From positions 1 to 35,125 of the forward strand of contig NZ_FOLC01000036.1 of the NCBI RefSeq assembly GCF_900112135.1: 35,125 bases of DNA, read 5' to 3'. The stretch is from Collimonas sp. OK412. GTDB lineage: Bacteria > Pseudomonadota > Gammaproteobacteria > Burkholderiales > Burkholderiaceae_D. Below the pieces are notes generated by a model. It ran no database searches, was not told the DNA's origin, and was given only the letters and a program-made list of their open reading frames with translations. The translations under genes and the position numbers were made by a program. This document shows, in pieces, positions 22,515 through 22,883 of the stretch; position 1 is the stretch's first letter; each line of letters begins with the position of its first letter.

Positions 22515-22883
22515 TCAGGATTCATCTTTCCCAATACTGACGGTAAACGAACCGGAATTATCACCGTACGAATTCGGGACATCGTTATAGACGAATGTAA
22601 TTAACCCTTGCGTTTGAGCCGGTGCGGTCCAGCGGAACAATCCCGTGTTCACCGGAATGTAGCCGCTCGATCCGATTTTCATCACCAGCGCGCCGCAGTA
22701 GGCGTCTCCACATATCAAGCCTTGATTCGGGTGAGTCTTGTCTCCTTGTGGCCCCCAGTTGGGTTGCGGACCGTAGCCTGCCCATCCCGATGCAACAATC
22801 GTTATTACATCCCCAGGATTGTAGGTTACGTTTGTTGGTTGTCCATTTTGTGCATTAGCAGCTACTGTGCCGGTCCAAGCCAT
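22515..22883 (-). CDS. LecA (PA-IL)-like galactose-binding lectin
   Basis: 122 residues, the exact length of Pseudomonas aeruginosa LecA and alignable to it without gaps: AWxGxVxAN...[19 protein letters not shown]...WGPQGD..HP.[32 protein letters not shown]. With the initiator Met removed, the LecA calcium and sugar residues are kept: Tyr36, His50, Gln53, Asp100 and Asn108, with Thr104 to Ser and Asn107 to Asp. It should form a calcium-dependent galactose-binding tetramer. GGAGG precedes the ATG. It has no signal peptide, like LecA. It sits as cargo downstream of S in the prophage. Confidence 0.95.

Follow-up and report, generated by a model that had tools for sequence, protein, structure and literature searches.

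LecA, known mainly from Pseudomonas aeruginosa, serves as a drug target and as a model lectin, and the locus described here raises the question of how a gene for a close relative came to lie among phage genes in a soil Collimonas, and what its product might do there. The DNA that we analyzed, referred to below as the window, is one entire 35,125-base contig of a Collimonas genome.

A LecA-type gene in the S-V interval of a P2-like prophage

The lecA-like gene is read from the minus strand and starts with ATG (Table 1); reading the plus strand from 22515 instead, a stop is met after 29 codons. The product matched the Pfam PA-IL family (PF07828) at profile positions 1-120 of 121 (E 5e-52, 175.5 bits against a cut-off of 22.5), and no other PF07828 match was present in its own genome. 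The end-to-end, gap-free alignment with P. aeruginosa LecA claimed in the initial annotation was recovered with the PDB entry 1l7l, residues 1-121 on 1-121 (E 4.4e-58), at 71% identity. Using the list of calcium and sugar residues given in that annotation, and the ligand contacts in the available part of PMC12684298, we found five of the seven positions to be identical (Tyr36, His50, Gln53, Asp100 and Asn108 in LecA numbering) and two loop positions to be changed, Thr104 to Ser and Asn107 to Asp, exactly as had been proposed. These two changes had been called mild, and the same residues do occur in solved homologues. The prophage lectin thus shares with P. aeruginosa LecA its length, a gap-free alignment and all but two of the listed residues; given the 71% identity and the retained residues, it should fold as LecA and would bind terminal galactosides via a calcium ion. 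Inspection of its N-terminus by eye gave no evident signal peptide.

The surroundings are those of a P2-like prophage. Profile searches identified V, S, R, Rz-like spanin, endolysin, holin, D and terminase P, late genes of the P2 type that stand in order; the candidates for T and H had no Pfam match, and the remaining P2 gene letters are presumptive, assigned from position. lecA is placed in the S-V interval, with S beside it on the same strand and a gene for an N4/N6 methyltransferase on the opposite strand. Both this position and the neighboring profile matches bear out the initial reading of LecA as cargo of a P2-like prophage. The tRNA-Leu(taa) gene next to the integrase is probably the attachment side of the prophage. 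The right border was not found, because the 3′ end of this tRNA is single-copy in the genome assembly, and a search for an attachment-site repeat within the window gave nothing convincing. The right end of the contig (32621-34362) carries genes, one without a Pfam match and one TauD-like, that belong either to prophage cargo or to the host.

Table 1. Positions of lecA, its flanking elements and the prophage genes in the window.
Feature	Position	Strand	Basis or remark
lecA-like gene, 122 aa, PA-IL/LecA family galactophilic lectin	22515..22883	-	ORF, profile and PDB matches
Shine-Dalgarno-like GGAGG, 6 nt 5′ of the lecA ATG	22890..22894	-	sequence
Near 5′ region of lecA	22884..22989	-	101/106 identical in C. 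humicola, about as conserved as lecA
Promoter-like TTGACA-16-TATTGT	23020..23047	-	consensus match only
Hairpin 3′ of lecA, between convergent lecA and methyltransferase; also in C. humicola	22464..22488	-	folding
Tail completion gene S (Phage_tail_S), directly upstream of lecA	23108..23593	-	profile
Tail gene R	23566..24054	-	profile
Lysis genes: Rz-like spanin, endolysin, holin	24150..25657	-	profile
Terminase large subunit (P)	29228..31015	+	profile
N4/N6 DNA methyltransferase, convergent with lecA	21680..22429	+	profile
C5 cytosine DNA methyltransferase	20768..21610	+	profile
Com-like (Zn ribbon) coding region	20500..20754	+	70.6% identity to Com of the G005 prophage (Com domain found there)
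Baseplate gene V, far side of the S-V slot	19695..20447	-	profile
Tail gene D (Phage_GPD)	9054..10280	-	profile
Tyrosine integrase	2370..3377	+	profile
tRNA-Leu(taa), candidate attachment side	2139..2225	+	adjoins integrase

We also inspected the DNA on either side of lecA for regulatory elements. A structured RNA or leader 5′ of the gene was considered and rejected: an Rfam search of 22300-23300 returned no match, and the 5′ region of lecA folded no better than shuffled sequences. The near 5′ region (22884-22989) holds an open frame of 30 codons, and among the loci compared its relatives are found only at the two lecA loci, that of the window and that of C. humicola.

The C. humicola locus and the distribution of lecA

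A second copy of the gene is present in Collimonas humicola RLT1W51, where the encoded protein is 97% identical to the prophage lectin and the gene is set in ordinary chromosome, upstream of uvrA and near a cytochrome-b561-like stretch (the latter recognized by eye). The DNA around it is similar to window positions 22424-23226 (88.8%) and 22333-22408 (93.4%), and the order is that of the window: the 3′ end of S, the intergenic region, lecA, the hairpin and the 3′ end of the methyltransferase gene. The S piece there is decayed and out of frame (41% identity at the protein level). In the 50 kb around this lecA, the only further trace of the window's phage proteins found was a piece of phage gene D about 11 kb away; it lies beside an Rce1-like gene (L004:430-1084) and is perhaps a second scar. 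Judged by this shared order and similarity, the C. humicola locus is a remnant of prophage DNA of the window's type in which lecA has stayed intact. The scar, together with the mostly silent differences between the two genes, indicates that lecA very probably travelled with a P2-like phage lineage, which then left it behind.

The two genes differ at 24 of 369 bases, distributed as 4, 0 and 20 over codon positions 1, 2 and 3, which corresponds to 19 silent and 5 replacement changes and a dN/dS of 0.069 on 120 codons. Identity varied by segment: 91/119 in the S piece, 104/118 in the far half of the 5′ intergenic region, 101/106 in its near half, 345/369 in lecA and 73/91 downstream. The near half differed from the S piece with a Fisher p of 5e-5, for segments picked after the alignment had been seen. 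From these comparisons, the LecA protein is under constraint and the near 5′ region apparently is as well.

Elsewhere the family is sparse. PF07828 was found in 2 of 15 Collimonas genomes (the window's own and C. humicola), in the same two among 60 related genomes, in 1 of 399 genomes drawn from the order (the window's own) and in 2 of 369 drawn from the class, the second being G200, with two distant matches. These G200 matches (L028 and L029) are PA-IL domains inside frames of 334 and 319 aa. The nearest lectins outside Collimonas belong to the Chromobacterium group, in which 5 of 19 genomes carry lecA (C. sphagni, C. haemolyticum, C. alkanivorans, C. aquaticum and one more genome). The two Collimonas lectins are 82-90% identical to those of Chromobacterium (82-89% for the prophage lectin) versus 71-73% to P. 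aeruginosa LecA, and at the DNA level the gene is 73-82% identical to that of the four named species. A recent transfer from Chromobacterium was rejected, with a dS to C. sphagni of 1.2 and a lecA GC content of 0.515 versus 0.607. Of the P2-prophage and slot-cargo proteins used as queries, none was present in the 14-20 kb around the four named Chromobacterium lecA genes or in 3.4 kb at the fifth; a single S-gene DNA match near C. sphagni lecA (23 nt, E 0.004, 8 kb away) looks like chance.

We then consider viral sequence collections. A tblastn search with the lectin gave no match in 50,697 phage records, and the DNA of R plus S matched seven records with a query coverage of at most 28%. Scanning IMG/VR with the single lectin protein yielded three stretches, none of which was confirmed; a scan with an alignment yielded 11 lecA loci, ten at 71% and one, cut off, at 67% over residues 1-55. 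The available DNA ends at the lecA stop in ten of these loci and inside the gene in one (open frames were read in 5 of the 11). Two translated lectins were, respectively, identical to a PDB LecA chain and one residue different; no tRNA was seen in the 11 loci, and the four genes adjoining lecA in one contig gave only a weak cold-shock match, below cut-off. Since the contigs end at lecA, the gene in IMG/VR is probably host DNA flanking a prophage. Spread by known phages was rejected on these grounds, the phage records being without a match and the IMG/VR loci being judged flanking host genes.

The proposal that phages spread this lectin therefore stands in part. Within Collimonas, the C. humicola scar supports phage-linked spread as read from the sequences, from one prophage and one scar, and members of this branch, which the initial annotation allowed might never lie in prophages, were seen in both of these settings. 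As a general rule the proposal did not hold, given the Chromobacterium genes without P2 proteins nearby, the empty search of phage records and the flanking position of the IMG/VR genes. A distant family member (28.8% identity) occurs on three conjugative plasmids; in the one examined, pIMI-6 (L130), its neighbors include genes for tyrosine recombinases and an IS1 transposase, so that this lectin too is borne by a mobile element, although of another kind. In P. aeruginosa, lecA adjoins a tRNA-Leu gene in DNA into which phages often insert, and the loss of lecA in the PA7 clade has been linked to a prophage (available part of PMC4885879); in the window the gene is inside a prophage. A search of one literature collection returned no publication joining Collimonas and LecA, and LecA as phage cargo was not found, as judged by titles and the starts of abstracts. 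The protein family is known; its setting as prophage cargo was not found in print by these searches.

Contents of the S-V slot and pieces of gene S

To place lecA among related phages, we compared nine S-V slots that have an intact S close to that of the window, the window included, taking the DNA up to V; in the other eight, tblastn bore out the identity of S, R and V. lecA is present in one of the nine, and other genes stand beside S in seven of the remaining eight. These are a YcxB-like gene in the slots of genomes G005 and G008, an Rce1-like gene in G011, several genes in G014, one of them for a PI-PLC-X protein, and two proteins without assignment in G003; the three G006 prophages have, respectively, FN3 and Imm51 proteins, a 94-aa protein and nothing of note. 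The PI-PLC-X domain of G014 was found on a 308-aa part of a 462-aa frame (L071:5031-6419), and the Imm51-type immunity gene of G006 (L032) has relatives in chromosomal arrays beside S pieces (L115, L120, L128 and L129). The part next to V, Com plus methyltransferase, is common to most slots, with Com in the window and six of the eight others; a protein search did not find Com in the G008 slot or in one G006 slot, the latter having a short similar stretch at the DNA level. Two other S-family genes, both from genomes without lecA, were not counted among the nine: one in G010, with no match to the window-phage or slot-cargo proteins searched in the 10 kb around it, and one in G007, which consists of two broken frames with an R piece and has no V in the stretch examined. 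Among Burkholderia P2-like phages, the S-V interval carries a methylase in KL3 and Old in KS5; these and orf30 of P2 occupy the slot that lecA occupies here, none of them is a lectin, and the KL3 N4/N6 methylase is oriented relative to S as in the window (available part of PMC3091744). Defence genes in P2 gather in a different, large hotspot, between gpA and gpQ (available part of PMC9122126).

Pieces of S recur at many sites in Collimonas genomes. We searched 15 Collimonas genomes with one whole S gene, using end cut-offs of 50 nt (5′) and 40 nt (3′) and scoring no more than 40 candidates in each genome. Among the 41 matches listed, 23 keep the 3′ end without the 5′ end, 14 of them being the last 150 nt or less, and the others are near full length (10), 5′-end only (1) or internal (7). 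The neighboring gene R, of like length, gave 11 among the matches listed, of which eight are near full length, none is 3′-end only and three are 5′-end only, two of these lacking just the last 44-55 nt. For 3′-only pieces among the matches listed, S and R differ with a Fisher p of 0.001, on rows that are not independent, since certain arrays recur in more than one species; G014 C44, G002 C17 and G000 C49, for example, all carry one and the same cargo-gene pair. When 20 S pieces and four full genes were aligned and judged by eye, the right edge was sharp, just before the S stop, and the left edge was not uniform. At the protein level some pieces reach further into S, over residues 66-161 in C. 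humicola, 95-156 in G011 and 81-160 in G014. A model of early S (nt 61-186) matched complete S genes only, and a model of middle S matched in addition one G014 piece and L034. Extra S pieces occur within the slots of G011 (one), G014 (two) and G006 (two), and no extra 3′ copy was found in the window's own slot. Outside slots, S pieces adjoin cargo-type genes at several places (relatives of the Imm51 protein, c94, c101 and methyltransferases), and at others, e.g. L116, L119, L121, L122, L126 and L127, none of the searched proteins is nearby. Examples of 3′-end pieces between or beside cargo genes are L037:2733-2833, L071:2418-2527 and 4010-4255, L115:1500-1593 and L129:1005-1607.

The 3′-only pieces are perhaps traces of cargo entry. 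One possible, but doubtful, model is that the S-V slot is a platform for cassettes and that the 3′ part of S serves as a shared recombination tag. A unit of S 3′ part plus cargo would be brought in by crossover, leaving a copy of the tag between successive cargo genes and possibly giving rise to tagged chromosomal arrays, and LecA would be one such cassette. Its fellow cassettes, an assignment that we hold just as tentatively, would be the Imm51 immunity gene, the PI-PLC-like enzyme, the Rce1-like protein and the methyltransferases. The odds of this model are lowered because some tags, that of C. humicola included, reach further into S at the protein level, so that simple decay of prophages accounts for more of them; without a special tag, decay combined with recombination between phages may be enough. 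If the pieces are cassette marks, they would help to explain how cargo changes in P2-like phages.

Candidate roles of the prophage lectin

These observations lead us to favor, with some reserve, the view that lecA is a moron, or lysogenic-conversion gene, of a P2-like Collimonas prophage, encoding a calcium-dependent galactoside lectin that is released by lysis and faces the host. A moron is an extra gene between conserved phage genes, absent from sister phages, that has a promoter and terminator of its own, is expressed in the lysogen and changes it; the first of these features is seen for lecA, present in one of nine S-V slots. We propose that lecA, which follows the lysis genes and tail gene S at the start of the variable slot, would be expressed in the lysogen from its own promoter-like site or, in the small number of cells that undergo induction, along with the late genes, and that transcription may stop at the hairpin 3′ of the gene. 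Because no signal peptide is evident, LecA would leave when the phage holin and endolysin lyse induced cells. Once outside, the presumably multivalent lectin could bridge polysaccharides that bear galactose, or hold sister lysogens to surfaces, for example those of fungi or plants. The roles in biofilm, host association and release at lysis suggested at the outset are, like this model, inferred. We counted in favor of the moron assignment the GC content of lecA (0.515 versus 0.578 for the whole window) and the hairpin, whose folding z is -4.3 in the window and -1.9 in C. humicola. Counted against it were the promoter-like sites, which at two in the region versus a mean of 0.8 in shuffles do not go beyond chance; a consensus terminator scan, which placed a site at the hairpin on the plus strand only, towards the methyltransferase side, and none in the direction of lecA; the cargo of the other slots, which mostly runs against S, whereas lecA runs with it; the calcium/sugar loop, where two of the four residues that differ from the C. 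humicola protein lie; the lack of a second copy of the tRNA-Leu 3′ end in the assembly; the empty tblastn search of phage records; and the restriction of the phage link to one prophage and one scar.

Other explanations were weighed against the same data. The lectin could instead face phages, coating or blocking the galactose-bearing sugars of the lysogen or sticking to virions, and so alter adsorption, by superinfection exclusion or in host finding. The position of lecA on the S strand close to the lysis genes would suit such a function, as would the company of other P2-like S-V genes for which an action on phages or phage DNA is plausible (KS5 Old and the KL3 methylase, available part of PMC3091744). 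However, the protein matched no PHROGs family at E 0.001 and none of the phage records, which argues that LecA is not a usual virion part, and in C. humicola the gene persists although the surrounding 50 kb holds no intact prophage, so that we consider this function fairly unlikely. It is likewise unlikely, and a little more so, that the specificity of the prophage lectin has drifted from galactose through the changes at 104 and 107. Both residues are located at the ligand in LecA (available part of PMC12684298), and among nine LecA proteins compared the two changes occur in the prophage copy only. Yet the same Asp is found in PllA of Photorhabdus luminescens, a far less similar member of the PA-IL family (E 1.8e-16), and both the Ser and the Asp in the distant solved chain 30ew; as PllA binds alpha-galactosylated epitopes (available part of PMC8350385), the substitutions are not alarming. 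A gene picked up by chance and useless to phage and host alike would fit the rarity of lecA, found in just two Collimonas genomes and, within the order, in the window's own genome, but not a dN/dS of 0.069 or a near 5′ region conserved like lecA beside a decayed S piece, and we regard a mere hitch-hiker as quite improbable.

The finding of a close LecA relative as prophage cargo, together with a scar that retains lecA, points to a concrete route by which such lectins can spread. Soil Collimonas may also offer a laboratory-friendly system in which to ask if phage lysis frees lectins that have no signal peptide.
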